From the NCBI GenBank assembly GCA_000153385.1, contig CH672375.1, positions 416,352 through 480,351 on the forward strand: DNA of 64,000 nucleotides, read 5' to 3'. Shown here piece after piece: positions 4,334-62,454 of the stretch (the stretch's first letter is position 1; each line of letters opens with the position of its first letter). The notes beneath the pieces were generated by a model, which saw only the letters and a program-made list of their open reading frames with translations, ran no database searches and was not told where the DNA came from. The position numbers and the translations under genes were made by a program. The stretch comes from Flavobacteria bacterium BBFL7 (GTDB lineage: Bacteria > Bacteroidota > Bacteroidia > Flavobacteriales > Flavobacteriaceae).

Positions 4334-5217
4334 AACAAACTCTCTTTCTTTACTTTGACTATCCTCATATCAACATCATTTACACCGTAACTAATAATGA
4401 ATTCATCATATAAAACACAAATTCCTGAAAAATAAGTACATGATATCAAATTTTTATTAAACTTAAATCTATTACCAAATAGTGATTTGTAAGAATCGAT
4501 AAGATAATTGGAACCAGCTGTCGTTACTTTTAAATCATTGGTATTTAAAATTAAAGGTACACCATAATAAAGACGTTTATTTTTTAAATACATCTTTTTA
4601 TGCGCTATCATAAAATACTCATCCTTACCAATTACAGCAAGTTGAGTTCCTAATGAAAGTTTTGGAAGATCAGAATTTTTATGATAAAATTTTTCAAAAA
4701 TTAATTTATTATTCTCATTTATATTTATTGATTTTAAAATAATTAATGGGTTGACACTATATAACGCATGTAAAACATTATTTTTTTTGAAGAATGACCA
4801 ATTCTTTTCAATTGATTGCCTGTCCTTGAAAAAACACTCTTTAATTATAATGTTATTAAAATCACTAATTGATGCTAAGAAAAGTTTATTGTACGAACCT
4901 CCAACAAAACCTGTATTAAATGTGCAATAAACAATTTTATCAATTTCAAATAATTTGGGGTCCGCTACCTTTTGTACCTCTAGATTGGATTCACAATAAT
5001 TACTTAAGTCTAAAATCTCCAAATTTTGATATGAATCCCATTTATAAAGAATTGCTTTAATCTCGGACTTAACACTTACACAAACTCGTATTGCGAGATA
5101 AGTTGATTCATCACATAAAACTACGCTTGGATTAAATTTATATTTAAATTGTGCCAAATGTTCATTTACATTAGAAGGAAGTAAATCAACGATATGCCTT
5201 TTTAACCGCGTAACCAT
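4330..5217 (-). CDS. uncharacterised protein in glycan cluster, possible beta-propeller
   Basis: I do not recognise this 295-residue protein with certainty. It has no signal peptide or clear membrane helix. Segments such as DPKLFEIDKIVYCTFNTG (about 85-102), KNWSFFKKNNVLHALYSVNP (about 138-157) and GTQLAVIGKDEYFMIAHKK recall the repeated blades of five-bladed propeller proteins related to glycosidases and phosphorylases. The Asp/Lys/Trp/Pro pattern is the only basis. It overlaps both neighbours, so it is part of the operon. A glycan-modifying or glycan-binding role is inference. Confidence 0.45.
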   Translation of the reverse strand: MVTRLKRHIVDLLPSNVNEHLAQFKYKFNPSVVLCDESTYLAIRVCVSVKSEIKAILYKWDSYQNLEILDLSNYCESNLEVQKVADPKLFEIDKIVYCTFNTGFVGGSYNKLFLASISDFNNIIIKECFFKDRQSIEKNWSFFKKNNVLHALYSVNPLIILKSININENNKLIFEKFYHKNSDLPKLSLGTQLAVIGKDEYFMIAHKKMYLKNKRLYYGVPLILNTNDLKVTTAGSNYLIDSYKSLFGNRFKFNKNLISCTYFSGICVLYDEFIISYGVNDVDMRIVKVKKESLL

Positions 5218-5962: not shown

Positions 5963-6811
5963 TTACAATATTTTCCCTTCAAATATTATTGAAAGTTCTT
6001 TTTTAGATTTAATTGAAAAAAAATAATTTCTATCCAATGTAGGCTTTGTAATTAAACCAAGCTTTTTAATGCCTAAATTATTCTCGTTAATATCATATAA
6101 TTTATATCCTTTTGGAAAAATATTCTTCACCTTCTTCACATCGTTAAAATCATTAATTTCAATAAGAACATCAGGCTCATCTTTCTTCAATATGTCTCGC
6201 AATCCAACTAAAGTTTTTTGTTCAGCACCTTCAACATCTATTTTAATGAGTTTAATATTCTTCAAAGATTCAGAGATAACCCAATTACTAAGGACAATTG
6301 ATTTAACTGAAGTTTTTAAATTATTCATTTTTTTAGGAACAATCCCTGCAACAGAGGACATTATTCCTTCTTCTTCATAATAGTAAAATTCGATTTCACC
6401 TTCAGAATCTGAACATGCCGCTTTAACAATTGATGCCTTACTAATATTATTTAATTGAAAATTCTCTTCTAGTCTAATTATACAATTATCTTGAATATCA
6501 AAAGCGTATATATGTTTCACATTTTCATAAGTAGAGGCAATTAAGGAATAAATTCCAGAATATGCACCAATATCTAAAACAACTGAATCACCGTCAATTT
6601 TCTCTAATAAATTTTTCCATAAAGTCAAACTTGTTTTCTCCCATCCATTAAATTGGGTCCAATAAAGTTCTTTCACTACTGAATCATCATTCAAACATTT
6701 CATTTTAAATTCATGAAACCCATCAATTCTAATAGGAATATCACCATTTAGTGGATTTTCTTTCCAAAATTTCTTTTTTTGAGCAATTGTTTTAAGTGAT
6801 TTATACTCCAT
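5963..6811 (-). CDS. FkbM family methyltransferase
   Basis: A 282-residue SAM-dependent methyltransferase. Motif I is VVLDIGAYSGIYSLIAS (about 76-92), followed by YAFDIQD, and KLIKIDVEGAEQKTLVGL (about 183-200) is the hallmark FkbM segment. FkbM proteins O-methylate sugars or polyketides; beside glycosyltransferases it most likely methylates a glycan residue. It starts 7 bases after the ATPase gene. The acceptor is unknown. Confidence 0.8.
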   Translation of the reverse strand: MEYKSLKTIAQKKKFWKENPLNGDIPIRIDGFHEFKMKCLNDDSVVKELYWTQFNGWEKTSLTLWKNLLEKIDGDSVVLDIGAYSGIYSLIASTYENVKHIYAFDIQDNCIIRLEENFQLNNISKASIVKAACSDSEGEIEFYYYEEEGIMSSVAGIVPKKMNNLKTSVKSIVLSNWVISESLKNIKLIKIDVEGAEQKTLVGLRDILKKDEPDVLIEINDFNDVKKVKNIFPKGYKLYDINENNLGIKKLGLITKPTLDRNYFFSIKSKKELSIIFEGKIL

Positions 6812-6818
6812 AACGAAA

Positions 6819-8108
6819 TTATAATTTTTGAATATTCCATTCTGAATTAGAAAATAGAATACAATTAGATGAAAGAGATCTTGAAATTGTTATGTAGTCT
6901 GAACTAGGCCTAGATGAGCTCACATTAAAACTTATAAAATCTTTTTTGATATCTAATGGGACTTTACCTTCCAAAAGTGAAATTGAAACATTATACAGAC
7001 CGTCCAATAAATACAGTTTTTCAGGTTTTATTTGTAATTCATATTCTCCTGTTTTCACTTCTGACAAAGGTGAATTTATAAAATACAAACTTCTCCAAGT
7101 AACAATATTAGCCCCAAATGCATCACTTATACGGATACTAAAACTAGGGTTATTCAAATGATCTTTAAAAAATAGTTTTATTGAAAAAACAGGTAATTCA
7201 CCAGATTTGAAATTTGAAGTTATTACTCCGGATTCACTTTTTAAACTGAAACTTCTTATTGATGTCTCATTCAGTGAATTCAAGTCAAAATTCACTTTGG
7301 CTTTATGACTCAAATTAGACTCTAGATACCTTTTAATCCCATCTTCTACATTACCATTATAAACTATTGACCCATCTTCCACAAGTAAAACTCTACTACA
7401 CAAATCTTGAACAGCAGCCATATTATGACTCACAAAAAGCACGGTACGACCGCTTGTATTTGAAATATCTTGCATTTTACCTATAGCTTTCTTTTGAAAC
7501 TCAGCATCTCCTACGGCGAGCACCTCATCTACTACAAGTATATCGGGTTCTAGAAATGCGGCCACTGCAAACCCTAATCGTACTCGCATACCACTAGAAT
7601 AGCGTTTTACAGGTGTGTCTATATACATTTGACAACCCGAAAACTCAACGATTTCATCAATCTTACTCGCTATTTCGGCCTTAGTCATTCCTAGAATAGC
7701 ACCATTGAGAAAAATGTTTTCTCTTCCTGTTAATTCTGGATGCATTCCAGTTCCTACCTCTAGTAAACTCGCTATACGTCCTCTAGTTTTTATGCTTCCT
7801 GTGGTTGGACTAGTCACTCGTGAGAGTATTTTCAATAAAGTTGATTTACCAGCGCCATTTTTACCTATAATTCCTAATATCTCACCGCGCTTTACTTCAA
7901 AGTCGATATCCTGTAATGCCCATACATAATTTGAGCTGGCTGTGGCACTGCGATCGTTTATTGCTCCTATCTTTAAATAAGGATCTTGTTTACCTCTTAT
8001 CTTATGCCACATTCTATTCAGGTCATGGACAATCGTCCCAGTTCCTACTACACCTAGTCGGTACTGTTTAGAAACATTTTGTGCTTTTAAAATAATGTAA
8101 TCACTCAT
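6819..8108 (-). CDS. polysaccharide ABC exporter ATPase (Wzt/TagH type) with C-terminal extension
   Basis: A 429-residue ATPase. The nucleotide-binding domain has Walker A GKNGAGKSTLL (about 82-92), signature YSSGMRVRLGFA, Walker B ILVVDEVLAVGD and the switch His in FVSHN. The sequence beyond about 255 is an extra beta-rich domain like the carbohydrate-binding Wzt C-terminus, which in O-antigen systems recognises the finished chain terminus. It pairs with the permease at 8932-9786, exporting a lipid-linked glycan across the inner membrane. A pyruvyl-transferase gene lies between the two subunits. Confidence 0.85.
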   Translation of the reverse strand: MSDYIILKAQNVSKQYRLGVVGTGTIVHDLNRMWHKIRGKQDPYLKIGAINDRSATASSNYVWALQDIDFEVKRGEILGIIGKNGAGKSTLLKILSRVTSPTTGSIKTRGRIASLLEVGTGMHPELTGRENIFLNGAILGMTKAEIASKIDEIVEFSGCQMYIDTPVKRYSSGMRVRLGFAVAAFLEPDILVVDEVLAVGDAEFQKKAIGKMQDISNTSGRTVLFVSHNMAAVQDLCSRVLLVEDGSIVYNGNVEDGIKRYLESNLSHKAKVNFDLNSLNETSIRSFSLKSESGVITSNFKSGELPVFSIKLFFKDHLNNPSFSIRISDAFGANIVTWRSLYFINSPLSEVKTGEYELQIKPEKLYLLDGLYNVSISLLEGKVPLDIKKDFISFNVSSSRPSSDYITISRSLSSNCILFSNSEWNIQKL

Positions 8109-8932
8109 TTTCCAACATTTTTAAATGGACAAACTACAAGTAAATTTTCTTGGACTTTTTCTATATCTTTTGCTCTAGGTAAACTACTATCATGTTTATT
8201 AATTACGGCTAAAGCGTCTCTTAAAGATATTACTTCTTCCACATTTAAAGGATCATAAGCTCTTAACCCTACAGAAAGAAAGTAGTCATGGTATTTAACG
8301 CCATCTCCCATAATACGTTTTGAAAAACTCACTTGTACCGCTGGAATTTGATAAGCATGTGCGACTATTACACCATGTAAAGAAGATGATAAGATGCACT
8401 CACAACTTAAAATTTGTTTCGTTGTGTATTCAATATCGTTGGTTCTAAAGTTAATGACACAAACTTCATTATTATCTTTATACCAATCTTTAATGATATT
8501 ATAATCATTGATATGTGGAATGATCCCTAATTTGAACTTTTTATCAACTTGTGGATTATAATATAAGGGTAATAATAAGGCTGGATCGCCATAAACTTCT
8601 GGACATTCATAATTTAATTCTAGGAGACGCTTTCGCGAAAGCGGTCCTCTAACTGCTAGAAAAGTTGCGCCAGCTACCTGAGCCTCTCTAGAAATAATAC
8701 CACTACCCCATACTATACAATGCGCTCCTATATGTTCTAGTACGCTGCCTATAGTTACATATAACGGTTGCCATAAATTCCTTACATAAAATTTATTAGC
8801 TCGATACCATCGCACTTTTTTACCTGAAATTTTTTGAATTAAATATTTACCGAGTAAATCACCATAATTCTCTTTTGAGAATTTTTGAATATAAATTTCA
8901 CTCCACCAGTATAATCTAATTATTCCTGCCAT
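8105..8932 (-). CDS. polysaccharide pyruvyl transferase family protein
   Basis: The second pyruvyl-transferase-family protein of the locus, 275 residues. It shows NYGDLLGKYLIQKISGKKVRW near the N-terminus, GSGIISREAQ mid-protein and a LSSSLHGVIVAHAYQIPAVQV segment near 181-201. It overlaps the ATPase gene by 4 bases and the permease gene by 1 base, so all three are probably co-translated. The iterated palindrome encodes LSRKR within GPLSRKRLLEL. It is only modestly like the paralogue at 3503-4333, so the two may act on different residues. Confidence 0.7.
   Translation of the reverse strand: MAGIIRLYWWSEIYIQKFSKENYGDLLGKYLIQKISGKKVRWYRANKFYVRNLWQPLYVTIGSVLEHIGAHCIVWGSGIISREAQVAGATFLAVRGPLSRKRLLELNYECPEVYGDPALLLPLYYNPQVDKKFKLGIIPHINDYNIIKDWYKDNNEVCVINFRTNDIEYTTKQILSCECILSSSLHGVIVAHAYQIPAVQVSFSKRIMGDGVKYHDYFLSVGLRAYDPLNVEEVISLRDALAVINKHDSSLPRAKDIEKVQENLLVVCPFKNVGK
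8628..8643. repeat. iterated palindrome copy 2 (CGCTTTCGCGAAAGCG)
   Basis: Perfect 16-bp palindrome inside the pyruvyl-transferase-family gene, read as LSRKR. Confidence 0.95.
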
Positions 8933-9786
8933 TATACCGTATCTATAAAAGTTTTCTCAGTTCGATTAAATACTATAAGACCAAGAAAAAACATTATTAC
9001 TCCTAGTCCTAAACCTACATAAATTCCTTCCCAGTGAACGTCCATGTTATTAAACCATATGCTGCGATAGCTTTCTAGAATATGTGCGAGTGGATTCCAT
9101 TCTATGGCCCAGTAATAATCTTTTAATTTATCCTTTGCCGCATCCAGAGAATACATGACCGCACTTAAATACATTAATAAGTTAAGACTAAAACCAATTA
9201 AAATAGTCAGATCTCGATATTTAGTAGTAAAGGCCGATAGTATCATACCTAGACCCATTGCTATTAATATCACATTAAGTATAATTACTAGTAACAAAGG
9301 GAAATAAATGGAAGGTCTTACTTCTATGCCTTGATAAACATAATAAACATAAAAAAGGATAAGTATTAATAGTTGTATTCCATATTTAAATAATCCAGAT
9401 AACACCTTAGATGCAGGTGCAATGAACCTTGGGAAATACACCTTACCGAATAAGGTAGCATTAGATCTAAAGGCGTTACTGGTAGCATTCAAAGATTCCT
9501 TAAAATAAGACCATAGCGTTAAGCCTACCAAATTAAATAAAAAATCAGGAATTCCAATATTTTCAATTCCTGCGACTTTATTAAAAATTAATGTAAACAC
9601 TACACCTGTAAATAGGGGTTGAATTAAAAACCACAATGGACCTAGAATAGTTTGTTTATATACCGTGACTATATCTCTTTTTATAAAGAGAACTAGTAAG
9701 TCTCTATAACGCCATATTTCCTGAAGGTTAAGATCAATTAATTTACCTTTTGGTTTGATTTCATATAGCCACTCTTCTTTTGCCAT
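8932..9786 (-). CDS. polysaccharide ABC exporter permease (ABC-2, Wzm type)
   Basis: The 284-residue protein has a cytoplasmic N-terminus (RYRDLLVLFIKRDIVTVYKQT, a family-typical coupling region), LGPLWFLIQPL at the first membrane segment and about six hydrophobic helices in all, as expected for ABC-2 permeases of capsule and O-antigen export. It works with the ATPase at 6819-8108 in the inner membrane. The reconstructed full-length kinase frame would end only 4 bases before this start. Confidence 0.88.
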   Translation of the reverse strand: MAKEEWLYEIKPKGKLIDLNLQEIWRYRDLLVLFIKRDIVTVYKQTILGPLWFLIQPLFTGVVFTLIFNKVAGIENIGIPDFLFNLVGLTLWSYFKESLNATSNAFRSNATLFGKVYFPRFIAPASKVLSGLFKYGIQLLILILFYVYYVYQGIEVRPSIYFPLLLVIILNVILIAMGLGMILSAFTTKYRDLTILIGFSLNLLMYLSAVMYSLDAAKDKLKDYYWAIEWNPLAHILESYRSIWFNNMDVHWEGIYVGLGLGVIMFFLGLIVFNRTEKTFIDTV

Positions 9787-9790
9787 AAGT

Positions 9791-9935
9791 CTAGACTTTA
9801 GGTTTAAAAACTCTTTTAAACCATTTTTTTACTATATTAAAATAGCTATTTCTATTCTCATTTTCATGATATCCATTACCATATGCTCCATAGCCGTATC
9901 CATAACCATATCCAATAACCATAACCGTACTTGCC
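9791..9935 (-). other. out-of-frame remnant of the Wzc tyrosine tail
   Basis: In the alternative reading frame the DNA encodes repeated Tyr-Gly pairs, then GAYGNGYHENENRN, SYFNIVKKWFKRVFKPKV and a stop (TAG) at 9791-9793. This is exactly the kind of tail that flavobacterial Wzc proteins carry, and it fills the otherwise odd 89-base gap before the permease gene. The repeat unit is a hexamer (GGTTAT and variants) on the minus strand, which is slippage-prone. A one-base sequencing or assembly error is equally possible. Confidence 0.75.
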
Positions 9936-12251
9936 ACGTTCATTGAAATAATTAAACACAAAGCTTAAATTATCAAGTTCTTTACGGTTGTATTTATCAT
10001 TAACGACATCTAGCATAGTTTTTCTAGTATACTCTTGACGTATCATGTATAGAGTAGCGTCCGCATGTTTTGCAATCTCTAATGCATCAGCCACTAAACC
10101 TAAAGGTGGCGTGTCTAAAATAACATAATCATAATCCTTCTTAAACTGCTCTATCATTTCACCGGCGCGTTTGGACATAATAAGTTCACTAGGATTAGGC
10201 GGAACAGGACCTGATAAGGCAATATCTAAATTCTCTATTCCCGCTGAACGTATGATTTCATTTAGGCTACAATCATTTACTAAATAATTAGAAACTCCTA
10301 GATCATTATCTATCTCAAAATCATCAAAAATCTTAGGTTTTCTTAAATCTAAACCTACTAATAAAGTACGCTTACCGCTCAATGCGAAAACGGTTGCTAG
10401 ATTAATACTGGTAAAAGTTTTTCCTTCTCCACTTACACTACTAGTTACCATTACAGTACGTGATCCATGCAGTGATTCTTGATTATATAAAAAGTGTAAA
10501 CTAGATCTTATTCCTCTAAAAGCTTCTGCTATGGTAGATTTGGGTTTATCCTTTACAATTAAATTTGTAGGATGATCCATTTTACCTACCACTCCTATCA
10601 ATGGTATTTTAGAAAGCTTTTCAACATCTTTAGGAGAGTGAATATAATTATCTAATATGGTGAGAATGAATGCTATTGAAATAGGAATTGCTAGTCCTAT
10701 TAATAGTGCCATTAAATAATTAATATTTGAATCTCTTCTAGTACCGCCACCTCCAGTATCTTTAGCCTCATCTATAACATACACATCAGATACATTTGCA
10801 GCACGTACTAGCTCTGCTTCGGTTCTTTTGGCCATAAACAAATTATAGGTGCTTTGATTGACATCAAATTGTCTTTGAATCTTAAGAAATTCTTGTTGTT
10901 CTTTAGGCAACTTTTTAATCTGCGCTTCTACCTTACCTATCTGACCATAAAGAATACTCAATTCACGATTAAGGAGAGATTTTGAGCTCGTAATATTTTC
11001 ATATATAACATCCTTTACAGCATTAATATCACGATCTAATTCTCTAAAAACTGGGGCATCGGCTCTCATAGCAAATTCCCTTCTCTTGCGCTCTTCTGAT
11101 AATTGAATTAACCTAGATACTGCTGCAGATATACTTCCTTCCTCAATCCCAACTACTGATGGCGCCTGAATAATAGTGTAATCAGTCTTATTTTGAAGAT
11201 AATTTTTAAGGTTATCATAGTAATTTAACTTGTTTTGAATTCCACGTTTTTGGATTTCAAACTCAGTGAGTTTTAAATTAAAATCTGAATTTTGAGTTAC
11301 GGCATCTAACATTTGAGATTTATCCTTAAAATCTTCAAGGTCTTTCTCTGATTTTTTTAATGCTTTTTCTTGAACTATAAGTGAACTGTCTATATATTTT
11401 ATGGTACTCACAGCAAACTTATTTTTGCGTTCTAATTCACCGCGTTCTAAAATTACTGAACTGGTGTTTATATAATCTACTAATCGTTGTTTGTTTTCAC
11501 CAGATAAACTTAACAATAAAATGGAAGAACCTGAAGGCTCTTGTCTTATAGCAATAGATTTATATTTATTTACGGTACCCCAATAATTCCCGAAATTGAA
11601 CAACCATTCTCCAGTTTTAATGGATTCTGTGCGTTTATCGATGATTACATTGAGAAAAGGTAATTGTATAGAGTCCCCAAATTTGAATTGTTTTTTCCAC
11701 TCTCCTTCAGGAACAGTGACTGCTTGACTTTTTTTCAAACTGTAATGATAACCTGAGGCTGTAGAACTGGAGAAATTACTAGAAAGCTCAAATTTCTCTT
11801 GATTTAATACTTTAATTCTTATATTTTTTCCCGATAATTGCGTTTTGCTGCTATCAGCATAAATATAGAATGGTGTCTTTTTATAAGCATCAGTATTATA
11901 ATAATCACCTTCTTTTATATAATTAATATAAAACTGTAACTCGTCAACAACTTGTTCTGCATGAGTACGAGACTTAAACTGTACTATAGCGGTTGTTACC
12001 TTATCAGTAGTTCCGCCCCAATTAAAAGTCAAACTCGTATTATTAGTAAAAAGCGGATTTGAATTATCTTTTATACTAATCAATGAATTCGCAGAATAAA
12101 TAGTTCTTATAAATTGATTTTTATAGTAGGCATAAGAAAGCCCTATCCCCAAACAGATTATGAATAGCCACCATAACTTAATAAGTTTAGACAGAAATTG
12201 GCGGACATCAAAAATGCCCGATAAAGAATTAATTTCTTTTTCTTCTTCCAT
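9876..12251 (-). CDS. Wzc-like chain-length regulator / BY-type tyrosine kinase, C-terminus frameshifted
   Basis: The 791-residue open frame has a Wzz-like N-terminal part with a membrane helix near 27-44, a long coiled-coil periplasmic region, a second helix near 505-530 and a cytoplasmic kinase domain with Walker A SVSGEGKTF (about 604-612), A' LLVGLDLRKP and B YVILDTPPLG. BY-kinases control polymer length and export through phosphorylation of a Tyr cluster at the extreme C-terminus. Here that tail reads KYGYGY and then switches to a Trp-rich string (WIWLWIRLWSIW). One extra base at 9914-9915 causes this. Removing it gives ten Tyr and a basic end, with a stop at 9791. Confidence 0.85.
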   Translation of the reverse strand: MEEEKEINSLSGIFDVRQFLSKLIKLWWLFIICLGIGLSYAYYKNQFIRTIYSANSLISIKDNSNPLFTNNTSLTFNWGGTTDKVTTAIVQFKSRTHAEQVVDELQFYINYIKEGDYYNTDAYKKTPFYIYADSSKTQLSGKNIRIKVLNQEKFELSSNFSSSTASGYHYSLKKSQAVTVPEGEWKKQFKFGDSIQLPFLNVIIDKRTESIKTGEWLFNFGNYWGTVNKYKSIAIRQEPSGSSILLLSLSGENKQRLVDYINTSSVILERGELERKNKFAVSTIKYIDSSLIVQEKALKKSEKDLEDFKDKSQMLDAVTQNSDFNLKLTEFEIQKRGIQNKLNYYDNLKNYLQNKTDYTIIQAPSVVGIEEGSISAAVSRLIQLSEERKRREFAMRADAPVFRELDRDINAVKDVIYENITSSKSLLNRELSILYGQIGKVEAQIKKLPKEQQEFLKIQRQFDVNQSTYNLFMAKRTEAELVRAANVSDVYVIDEAKDTGGGGTRRDSNINYLMALLIGLAIPISIAFILTILDNYIHSPKDVEKLSKIPLIGVVGKMDHPTNLIVKDKPKSTIAEAFRGIRSSLHFLYNQESLHGSRTVMVTSSVSGEGKTFTSINLATVFALSGKRTLLVGLDLRKPKIFDDFEIDNDLGVSNYLVNDCSLNEIIRSAGIENLDIALSGPVPPNPSELIMSKRAGEMIEQFKKDYDYVILDTPPLGLVADALEIAKHADATLYMIRQEYTRKTMLDVVNDKYNRKELDNLSFVFNYFNERGKYGYGYWIWLWIRLWSIW

Positions 12252-12252
12252 T

Positions 12253-13059
12253 TTACAATCGAGTAAAGAGTAATACTGTAGTTACTAATGTAGTCAATAC
12301 AGAAATGATAGTTGTAAATGATGCAAGTCCAGTAGTTCCAGTACCTAAAGATTTTTGAGGTAATGGATCTACTACAATCATGTCATTAGGTTGTATGTAA
12401 TAATAAGGCGAATAAATAACGTTTAATTGCGTTAAATCAAGATGATGCACCTTAACACCATCGGGATATTGCCTTACTATGCGCACTTTGGTTAAATCTC
12501 CTGTGATAGGTACTCCACCACTGTTTGCAATAGCTTCAATAATCGTAGCCTGATCTCTATATATAACTTGCTCACCTTTGCCTCCAACTTCACCAGCCAT
12601 CACATAACGTAACCCACCTAAACGTACATTAACAAAAAGCTCTGCATTTTCTTTAAAATACTCATTTAACAATCTTGTTTCTATAAACTCTCGTAATTCT
12701 TCTAATGTAAGACCAATTGCTTTTATCTTTCCTAGTTGTGGAACTCTTATATCTCCATGTTGATCTATAGTATAACCAGTAAAATACAAGCCAGAACCTT
12801 GAACTGCCCCATTCGAACTATTATTTGTGTTACCAGCATTAAACATGGAGATTAAATCATTATCATATGGCGCCTTAATTTGAATACTTAATACATCATT
12901 AATTTGTAATCTATAGGGTGGCTGTACTTTTTGAATAGTAATAAGCGAGTCATTTTTTACAGTTGGAGACTCTTGTAAATAAGTAATATTACGTGTAGGA
13001 ACGCAAGAACTTACCATTAAAACCAAACCTATAATTAATAAACCTAAAACGGTACGCAT
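12253..13059 (-). CDS. polysaccharide export outer-membrane lipoprotein (Wza-like)
   Basis: A 268-residue lipoprotein with lipobox cysteine at residue 19 (MVSSC). The poly-export domain follows (PPYRLQINDVLSIQIKAPYD, about 47-66) and then SLBB-like beta-grasp segments (YVMAGEVGGKGEQVIYR). A short hydrophobic helix ends the protein (TIISVLTTLVTTVLLFTRL), as in many Bacteroidota homologues. It is predicted to form the outer-membrane export channel working with the Wzc-like protein. It is the first gene of the operon, with the next start 1 base downstream. Confidence 0.88.
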   Translation of the reverse strand: MRTVLGLLIIGLVLMVSSCVPTRNITYLQESPTVKNDSLITIQKVQPPYRLQINDVLSIQIKAPYDNDLISMFNAGNTNNSSNGAVQGSGLYFTGYTIDQHGDIRVPQLGKIKAIGLTLEELREFIETRLLNEYFKENAELFVNVRLGGLRYVMAGEVGGKGEQVIYRDQATIIEAIANSGGVPITGDLTKVRIVRQYPDGVKVHHLDLTQLNVIYSPYYYIQPNDMIVVDPLPQKSLGTGTTGLASFTTIISVLTTLVTTVLLFTRL

Positions 13060-15263: not shown

Positions 15264-16031
15264 TTGCTTCACCAACTCAAGAACTATATAAAACACTGCC
15301 TTAAATCCTTTCATTTACATGGGATTCACTCGCCGTTTGTGTTTACACTCGAGAAAAAGTGCTTAAGAGATAAAACGTATTATGAGCAGTATGATGCTAT
15401 AAGACGCTTTCGCGAAAGCGTAAAAAACAACCACACCATTTTACACATAGAAGATTATGGAGCTGGAAGTAAAGTCTTTAAAACTGATGAACGTCGTGCG
15501 AGCGACATTCTGAAATACAATTCTAGTGATAGAAAATCTGCTGAAATGTTATTCCGGTTGTGCAACTATTTTAATGTAAGCAACGTTTTAGAACTTGGTA
15601 CTTCCATAGGAATAGCAACACATGCTATGGCCTTATCAGGTGCTCATATAACCACAATTGAAGGCAGTCCAGAGGTTCAAAAATTTGCACAATCACAATT
15701 CGAAAAATTTAACCTAGATAAGGTAAAAAGTGTTTGCAGTAAGTTTGATAAATTTCTTAGTAATCAATTAGGGACAACATATGACCTGATTTACATTGAT
15801 GGACATCACGATGGAATGGCTACCATAAACTATTTTAATGCTTGCCTAAAACTATCTCACAAAGACACTATTTTTATACTGGACGACATATACTGGTCGC
15901 AGGATATGACAGATGCATGGAATCAACTATGTCAACATGCAAACGTCACCGCTAGTATAGATCTGTATGATGTCGGGCTCTTATTTTTAAGAAAAGAACA
16001 ATTGCAAGAACGTTTTTACATCAAATTGTAA
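15264..16031 (+). CDS. class I SAM-dependent O-methyltransferase, TTG start
   Basis: A 255-residue methyltransferase with motif I VLELGTSIGIATHAMALSGA (about 109-128), an acidic TTIEGSPE and DLIYIDGHHDG (about 175-185), the pattern of small-molecule O-methyltransferases. The start is the TTG at 15264: an in-frame TAA lies 21 bases upstream, no ATG is available before conserved sequence, and the N-terminus LHQLKNYIKHCLKSFHLHG with HSPFVF looks complete. The iterated palindrome encodes RFRES at about 48-52. Substrate unknown. Confidence 0.8.
   Translation: MLHQLKNYIKHCLKSFHLHGIHSPFVFTLEKKCLRDKTYYEQYDAIRRFRESVKNNHTILHIEDYGAGSKVFKTDERRASDILKYNSSDRKSAEMLFRLCNYFNVSNVLELGTSIGIATHAMALSGAHITTIEGSPEVQKFAQSQFEKFNLDKVKSVCSKFDKFLSNQLGTTYDLIYIDGHHDGMATINYFNACLKLSHKDTIFILDDIYWSQDMTDAWNQLCQHANVTASIDLYDVGLLFLRKEQLQERFYIKL
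15405..15420. repeat. iterated palindrome copy 3 (CGCTTTCGCGAAAGCG)
   Basis: Perfect palindrome inside the O-methyltransferase gene, read as RFRES. It extends to 18 bp (A at 15404, T at 15421). Confidence 0.95.
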
Positions 16032-60445: not shown

Positions 60446-62454
60446 AACAAACAGCCATAACAGATTCCTTACTACGCTTTCGCGAAAGCATAAAACAAGG
60501 TATTCCAGATACATTACCTGCACCTCACGTTTATGATAACAATGTGAATCATGCTCCAAAACGTAAAAAAATTCTTTCAAAAGACGAAGAAGAATTAGCC
60601 CTACGTAATGCATTGCGTTATTTTGAACCACAACATCATGCTATTCTACTTCCAGAATTTAAAAAAGAGCTTGAGGATTATGGACGAATATACATGTATC
60701 GTTTCATGCCAGATTATGAAATAAAAGCTCGCAATATTGATGATTATCCACATCAATCTAAACAAGCTGCAGCGATTATGTTAATGATTCAAAATAATCT
60801 AGATCATGCTGTAGCACAACATCCACATGAGTTGATTACCTATGGTGGTAATGGTGGTGTTTTTTCTAATTGGGCACAGTACTTATTAACTATGAAGTAC
60901 TTGAGCGAGATGACTGACGAGCAAACACTTGCCATGTATAGCGGTCACCCGATGGGATTATTCCCTTCACACAAAGGTGCTCCACGATGTGTAGTGACTA
61001 ATGGTATGATGATCCCTAATTATTCACAACCAGATGATTGGGAGAAATTTAATGCACTAGGTGTTACTCAATATGGTCAAATGACTGCAGGCTCTTATAT
61101 GTATATAGGTCCTCAAGGTATTGTACATGGTACAACTATAACAGTTTTAAATGCATTTAGAAAAATAAAACAAACGCCTACTGGTAACATTTTTGTTACC
61201 TCAGGTTTAGGTGGCATGAGCGGCGCACAACCTAAAGCAGGTAATATCGCTGGATGTATAACAATTTGTGCAGAGATGAATCCTAAGGCTGTACATACCA
61301 GACATTCACAAGGCTGGGTAGACGTGGTTATAAAAAACACTGTAGATTTAATTACTCGTGTAAAGGAAGCACAATCAAAAAATGAAACCGTATCGATTGC
61401 TTATGAAGGCAACGTGGTAAGAGTATGGGAAGCATTATATGACGCAAACATACATATTTCTATAGGTAGTGATCAGACCAGTTTACACAATCCTTGGGCA
61501 GGTGGATATTATCCCGTTGATTTAAGTTTTGAAGAATCTAATGAGATGATGAGTAATCATCCAGATAACTTTAAAAAAGAGGTGCAACGTTCCTTACGCA
61601 GGCATGTCGCGGCTATTAATAAACATACAGAAAAAGGAACTTATTTCTTTGACTATGGAAATGCATTTCTTCTAGAATCTAGCCGTGCAGATGCTGATAT
61701 AGCCGGTGATGGCAAAGAATTTCGCTATCCATCTTATGTACAAGATATCATGGGACCTATGTGTTTTGATTATGGTTTTGGCCCATTTAGATGGGTTTGT
61801 GCTTCAAATAGCCCAGAAGATCTTAAGAAAACAGATCAAATTGCGACAGATGTATTAGAAAAGCTTTCCCAAAATGCACCACAGCGTATACAGCAGCAAA
61901 TGCAGGATAATATTAAATGGATTAAAGGAGCTCAAGAAAACAAACTAGTAGTAGGTTCTCAGGCACGAATTCTATATGCAGATGCACAAGGACGTATTGA
62001 AATTGCTAGAGCATTTAATACAGCAATTAAAAAGGGTGAGATAGGACCTGTTGTACTAGGTCGTGATCATCATGATGTATCTGGTACGGACTCGCCATAT
62101 AGAGAAACATCAAACATTTACGATGGTTCCCGATTCACGGCAGATATGGCTATACAGAATGTTATAGGAGATAGTTTTAGAGGTGCTACTTGGGTTTCCA
62201 TTCACAATGGTGGCGGCGTAGGTTGGGGCGAGGTTATAAACGGAGGTTTTGGTATGCTTATTGATGGTTCTATAGAAGCAGAAAAGCGATTAGAGTCAAT
62301 GCTTTTCTGGGATGTTAATAACGGTATAGCTAGACGTAATTGGGCTAGAAATGAAAATGCTGTTTTTGCCATAAAAAGAGCTATGGAATCAAATCCACAG
62401 TTACAAGTTACTTTACCTCATAGTGTAAGTGACGATTTATTAAATAATGTTTAA
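60442..62454 (+). CDS. hutU: urocanate hydratase
   Basis: A 670-residue urocanase: YGGNGGVFSNWAQYLLTMKY, MTAGSYMYIGPQGIVHGT, TSGLGGMSGAQPKAGNIAG and VSIHNGGGVGWGEVINGGFG are conserved NAD-binding and active-site segments. The tyrosine/cysteine active-site region FDYGFGPFRWVC is present. The enzyme converts urocanate to imidazolonepropionate in histidine breakdown. It is longer than the roughly 555-residue proteobacterial form. No other hut gene lies in the window. The palindrome encodes RFRES near residues 12-16. Confidence 0.93.
   Translation: MKQTAITDSLLRFRESIKQGIPDTLPAPHVYDNNVNHAPKRKKILSKDEEELALRNALRYFEPQHHAILLPEFKKELEDYGRIYMYRFMPDYEIKARNIDDYPHQSKQAAAIMLMIQNNLDHAVAQHPHELITYGGNGGVFSNWAQYLLTMKYLSEMTDEQTLAMYSGHPMGLFPSHKGAPRCVVTNGMMIPNYSQPDDWEKFNALGVTQYGQMTAGSYMYIGPQGIVHGTTITVLNAFRKIKQTPTGNIFVTSGLGGMSGAQPKAGNIAGCITICAEMNPKAVHTRHSQGWVDVVIKNTVDLITRVKEAQSKNETVSIAYEGNVVRVWEALYDANIHISIGSDQTSLHNPWAGGYYPVDLSFEESNEMMSNHPDNFKKEVQRSLRRHVAAINKHTEKGTYFFDYGNAFLLESSRADADIAGDGKEFRYPSYVQDIMGPMCFDYGFGPFRWVCASNSPEDLKKTDQIATDVLEKLSQNAPQRIQQQMQDNIKWIKGAQENKLVVGSQARILYADAQGRIEIARAFNTAIKKGEIGPVVLGRDHHDVSGTDSPYRETSNIYDGSRFTADMAIQNVIGDSFRGATWVSIHNGGGVGWGEVINGGFGMLIDGSIEAEKRLESMLFWDVNNGIARRNWARNENAVFAIKRAMESNPQLQVTLPHSVSDDLLNNV
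60475..60490. repeat. iterated palindrome copy 15
   Basis: Perfect 14-bp core (60476-60489) near the 5' end of hutU, read as RFRES; the outermost base pair is C-A. Confidence 0.95.

Follow-up and report, generated by a model that had tools for sequence, protein, structure and literature searches.

Does the tyrosine-rich tail of a polysaccharide kinase in a marine bacterium run out of frame, and what would such a break mean for the enzyme? The window, that is, the whole stretch of 64,000 nucleotides analysed here, covers positions 416352-480351 of contig C1 (692 kb) in a 3.1-Mb genome of seven contigs from the genus Nonlabens (marine Flavobacteriaceae). On its minus strand, at 9876-12251, it carries a gene that Pfam, NCBIfam, and phmmer assigned to a Wzc-type BY-kinase (a polysaccharide co-polymerase with a tyrosine autokinase) of 791 aa as readable, with a frame-broken tail. 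The gene is flanked by a gene for a Wza-like polysaccharide export protein (12253-13059, minus strand; Pfam Poly_export and SLBB) and by ABC transporter genes. These are, from profile matches, a Wzm-like ABC-2 permease, which is the gene after the kinase (8932-9786, minus strand), and a Wzt-like ATPase with a Wzt C-terminal domain (6819-8108, minus strand).

The kinase scored above the Pfam cut-offs for Wzz (28.9 bits) and GNVR (36.5 bits), also matched AAA_31, and reached 153.8 bits for the eps-family autokinase domain TIGR01007 of NCBIfam (cut-off 108.05). Its best solved relatives were E. coli Wzc chains (phmmer, E 3e-41), and two transmembrane segments showed as hydropathy maxima around residues 20 and 515. 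BY-kinases carry Walker A', Walker B, and ExxRxxR motifs. We found Walker B as VILDTPP at 710, ExxRxxR as EAFRGIR at 576, and Walker A' as LLVGLDLR at 630, the last with a loosened pattern. The strict Walker A pattern [AG]xxxxGK[ST] was unmatched, and SVSGEGKT stands at the expected place within the AAA_31 match. On these sequence features, the protein is a member of the BY-kinases of the Wzc type (PCP-2a), with autophosphorylation and control of polysaccharide output as predicted activities. Like E. coli Wzc, it has a Wzz/GNVR membrane part, a cytoplasmic kinase domain, a tyrosine-rich C-terminal tail, and an adjoining Wza. Unlike Wzc, it has Wzm/Wzt transporter genes as neighbours and a tail that consists of a Gly-Tyr repeat and then a basic segment, and that is broken in frame.

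Read in three frames on the minus strand, the kinase ends as ...FNERGKYGYGY-WIWLWIRLWSIW, with a premature stop at 9876-9878. The in-frame remnant of the Gly-Tyr tail (9915-9929) holds three tyrosines (9929, 9923, and 9917), the final one encoded by codon 9917-9915. Codon 9913-9911 (GGA) starts the other frame, which translates as GYGYGYGYGAYGNGYHENENRNSYFNIVKKWFKRVFKPKV up to a stop at 9791-9793. This second stretch (9791-9913) is the rest of the ancestral tail, as judged from the three-frame reading and its match to relatives, and contains seven tyrosines (9910, 9904, 9898, 9892, 9883, 9871, and 9844), a GYHEN motif, and the basic C-terminal segment. The C-terminal cluster is therefore divided, with 3 of about 10 tyrosines in the actual frame and 7 in the next, and the substituted end (9876-9914) has 12 residues, five of them Trp. 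The permease start at 9786 lies 4 bases past the stop of the other frame and 89 bases past the actual stop. An earlier note on this DNA had described a one-base shift near 9914, the replacement of seven tyrosines by a Trp-rich end, and, on removal of the base, a ten-tyrosine tail with its stop 4 bases before the permease; all of this was borne out, the change of frame falling between 9915 and 9913.

The same change point (9913-9915) appeared in tblastn with the kinase of the one-contig genome G016 as the query, where residues 1-779 matched in one frame and residues 782-819 in the next. Together with the same one-frame layout in all 36 distinct tails of relatives, this indicates that the split reading is not due to chance. 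The Trp-rich end, for its part, is best read as a mechanical by-product with no information of its own, because any GGNTAY run in that frame yields only W/R and I/L/V; neither wrong frame of such a repeat contains a stop.

Comparison with relatives, in line with the sister-strain check that the earlier note had proposed, left the break private to the window among the genomes examined. A kinase orthologue was present in 21 of the 22 other genomes of the genus (G010 has only a paralogue), and all 21 tails stay in a single frame from the Gly-Tyr repeats over a GYH motif to a terminus rich in K/R. Extended to a wider set and leaving out the window's own, the comparison gave 36 distinct tails, every one in frame and with the same layout. 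By a regular-expression count, these tails had from 4 to 9 repeat units and differed by whole units only, never in frame. This family-wide pattern, in which tail length changes while the frame is kept, is useful whether the break is real or an error.

Behind the repeat, the net charge was +2 to +10 in 36/36 of the relatives' tails, each of which ends in a short, K/R-rich, and often amphipathic segment; the window counterpart (9791-9870) lies in the lost frame. Membrane contact is perhaps a candidate role for it. As a separate observation, one of the 21 orthologous kinases, that of N. ulvanivorans JCM 19298 (L024/L040), is frame-split near residue 522 (L040, about 4501-4640), in the stretch that separates its membrane part from its kinase domain. 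Our literature search on Nonlabens and tyrosine kinases found nothing relevant.

We also scanned 397 genomes of the family for Gly-Tyr runs interrupted by 1 to 5 bases. The pattern matched in nine genomes, the window's included. In the eight others, the spacer was three bases, in frame, at all 13 places, and a one-base spacer occurred in the window only. No out-of-frame break was seen by this DNA pattern scan in the 396 other family genomes, and at the genus level it was found in 1 of 23. An uninterrupted run was present in 223/397, although these are genome-wide counts of a DNA pattern, in which some matches may be other Gly-Tyr-rich genes and breaks near the edge of a run would be missed.

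These results bear on phase variation, which the earlier note had offered as a cause through slippage in the hexameric repeat. The tract would then be a contingency locus where slippage toggles the tail on and off. A repeat is indeed present (TRF), and frameshift switching has been reported for a Wzc-like protein of Akkermansia muciniphila: the accessible part of the source describes how a shift of one base in a run of nine G, near the start of the gene, inactivates the Wzc-like/Wzz protein Amuc_1413, an event that recurs and may be reversible (PMC13055324). Unlike that case, the window break has no homopolymer, sits in the last part of the gene, and was seen once. The Gly-Tyr run is about 40 bases long with degenerate units (73-76% matches, TRF) and no homopolymer tract. 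Hexamer slippage is ruled out as the cause because gain or loss of six bases keeps the frame; the relatives differ by whole units alone, all 36 of them in frame, and one out-of-frame break among 397 genomes stands against 223 with intact runs. We thus regard phase variation as very improbable. No frame-shifting repeat with both states in relatives was found in the 36 tails or the 396 family genomes, and the contingency locus was rejected.

Programmed recoding would instead have ribosomes or RNA polymerase shift frame part of the time and give a short and a long kinase. Two observations would suit such a mechanism, namely that neither frame is interrupted at the junction and that the downstream one has been preserved, but the frame change is conserved in no relative (36/36 tails are single-frame), no slippery motif was recognised by eye, and the best Rfam match was far below the gathering score. 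We consider it extremely unlikely and rejected a programmed frameshift, with no conservation among the 36 tails and no Rfam family at the site. Hardly any weight goes to its functional extension, in which normal reading would give a tail-poor kinase, recoding or transcript slippage would add some full-tailed kinase, and the ratio of the two would tune octamer cycling and chain length.

The age of the break can be approached from the codons behind it. Across 17 post-break codons, read in the old frame, the comparisons with the three near relatives L033, L005, and L040 each gave 6 synonymous and 0 nonsynonymous differences, all at third positions (binomial p ~7e-5 each, the comparisons being non-independent). 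The synonymous and nonsynonymous counts were 4/2 against L034, 5/1 against L007, 8/0 against L009, and 8/2 against L008. The divergence of these codons is probably mostly older than the break. Since the old frame still seems to be under selection in them, the sequence indicates that the tail frame was lost recently, or was never lost in the living strain. An older pseudogene was ruled out, because the rest of the gene has an uninterrupted frame and the frame that was lost is still conserved.

Two explanations fit a recent or absent break, and the first is the one we hold to be probable, with some reserve: a mutation, seen in this genome alone among those examined, that lengthened or shortened the Gly-Tyr tract by a non-multiple of three bases. 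The second is a sequencing or assembly error, with the gene intact in the strain and a wrong base count at the break in the deposited sequence; we regard it as possible, but doubtful. The tail is conserved across every relative examined, the lost frame still looks selected, and the 2.4 kb kinase gene shows no further decay, all of which would fit an error as well. The contig has one run of 92 N, which makes the assembly a draft. The quality of the assembly speaks on the other side. With 447 G016 proteins as queries, we found 363 orthologues on C1 (380 kb of coding sequence), of which two were frame-split, the kinase included. The other split gene, near 499,400 of C1, has several differences between the two species, and shows that the background of splits is not zero; still, it is just one further case among the 363 on the same contig.

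In the opposite direction (C1 against G016), 8 of 370 genes were frame-split, mostly beside A/T runs in G016 and probably through sequencing noise. These eight lie within 2.02-2.56 Mb of that genome (L116-L123 and L129-L147). The split-frame rate covers these 540 kb of G016 compared with contig C1 only; the stretches L050-L069 (400 kb), with no orthologues on C1, were left out. A stricter split test gave 0 splits among 97 orthologues from G016 to C1 and 2 among 98 in reverse. It missed the kinase break, probably through an E-value cut on the short tail match, and was not used for the rate.

Unlike most of the G016 splits, the break site has no homopolymer of more than two bases. Besides, usual read lengths far exceed the tract of about 40 bases, which also speaks against an error. 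Because the assembly is otherwise clean (2/363 split), a real private mutation appears somewhat likelier; with a window assembly that is not indel-rich and a break site without a homopolymer, we moderately favour it over an error. An error here would be a warning to annotators. A real break would make this a naturally occurring allele of a Wzc kinase with a truncated tail, in a marine bacterium, and would open the questions of the minimum number of tyrosines for a Bacteroidota kinase and of the role of the conserved basic segment behind them.

If the mutation is real, the membrane, periplasmic, and catalytic parts would all remain in the product, which would carry three rather than about ten tail tyrosines and would lack the basic C-terminal segment. 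According to the accessible text on Wzc of E. coli, the tail reaches into the active site of the neighbouring subunit, phosphorylation starts at the C-terminal end and moves towards the N-terminus, and its extent matters rather than any single tyrosine (PMC8285477, PMC11986026). With the distal seven sites gone, the phosphorylation ladder, which drives the octamer-monomer cycle, would form in part only. For V. cholerae VpsO, the text available to us describes a four-tyrosine mutant with 26-fold less polysaccharide and a colony form similar to that of the tail deletion, compared with 117-fold less on deletion of the gene, and a catalytically dead mutant with more polysaccharide (PMC7485978). 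The mutants engineered to lack several tail tyrosines, or the whole tail, parallel the window allele, although they are experimental point mutants and a deletion, whereas in the window the frame changed naturally (or by artefact) and the Trp-rich end is new. By analogy with the VpsO tail mutants, the output of capsule or exopolysaccharide should fall without being lost altogether.

A loss of kinase control, which the earlier note had listed among its possibilities, or its weakening is thus supported as the likely consequence by analogy with Wzc and VpsO. Our best guess is a weakened allele and not a switch: the seven distal sites and the basic segment are gone and the catalytic parts stay, and what function is left is judged from distant homologues only. 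As a mechanism this is ordinary, a damaged wzc allele of a kind already known. Another known kinase of this type is Ptk1 of Porphyromonas gingivalis, which belongs to a different class of Bacteroidota. Like the window kinase, Ptk1 is a Bacteroidota BY-kinase; it has a tyrosine-rich C-terminus and is needed for exopolysaccharide, and, unlike the window kinase, it has no frame break reported in the available part of the source (PMC4082711).

The next gene may be affected as well. In relatives, the gap from the kinase stop to Wzm was 0-40 bases in the 15 of 36 where Wzm was recognised as the next gene, a lower bound since the search used a single start motif that variant starts and other next genes do not have. 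Because the gap is 89 bases here against 0-40 in those relatives, translational coupling to wzm may fall, perhaps with less Wzm.

The same genome encodes a paralogous BY-kinase on contig C2 (locus L128:3925-6300 and 6303-7034), with a short tail of four tyrosines. Its neighbours are genes for a Wza-like protein and for a PHP phosphatase of the CpsB/CapC type; no phosphatase gene was seen directly beside the window kinase. Since the paralogous tail has four tyrosines, three may suffice for some function in the window kinase, and the paralogue may partly cover for the window allele.

Finally, the window contains 15 copies of the palindrome GCTTTCGCGAAAGC against 0 expected (e.g., 2279-2292, 8629-8642, 15406-15419, and 60476-60489). 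The genome has 551 copies, the 23 Nonlabens genomes all have between 288 and 857, and a reversed control gave 0. In a family sample of 120 genomes, two Nonlabens had 551 and 578 copies and the other 118 had 0-17. It looks like a genus-specific iterated palindrome, which we take to be comparable to uptake-signal-like or HIP1-like elements; a literature search on it found nothing. On C1, 125 of the 132 TTTCGCGAAA sites extend to the full 14-mer, and 58% of the sites fall within ORFs of 120 aa or more, which cover 87% of the contig. In several Nonlabens, the palindrome partly encodes the K/R-rich segment of the kinase. In four genomes of other genera (G145, G122, G131, and G117), pairs of copies lie exactly 933 bases apart, which suggests one common transferred or conserved segment. 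The copies are spaced more evenly than by chance (CV 0.59 vs. 0.78-1.51 in 2000 simulations), with 0.8% of gaps below 1 kb against 16.5% expected, and the position is common to G016 at 74 of the 87 testable sites.
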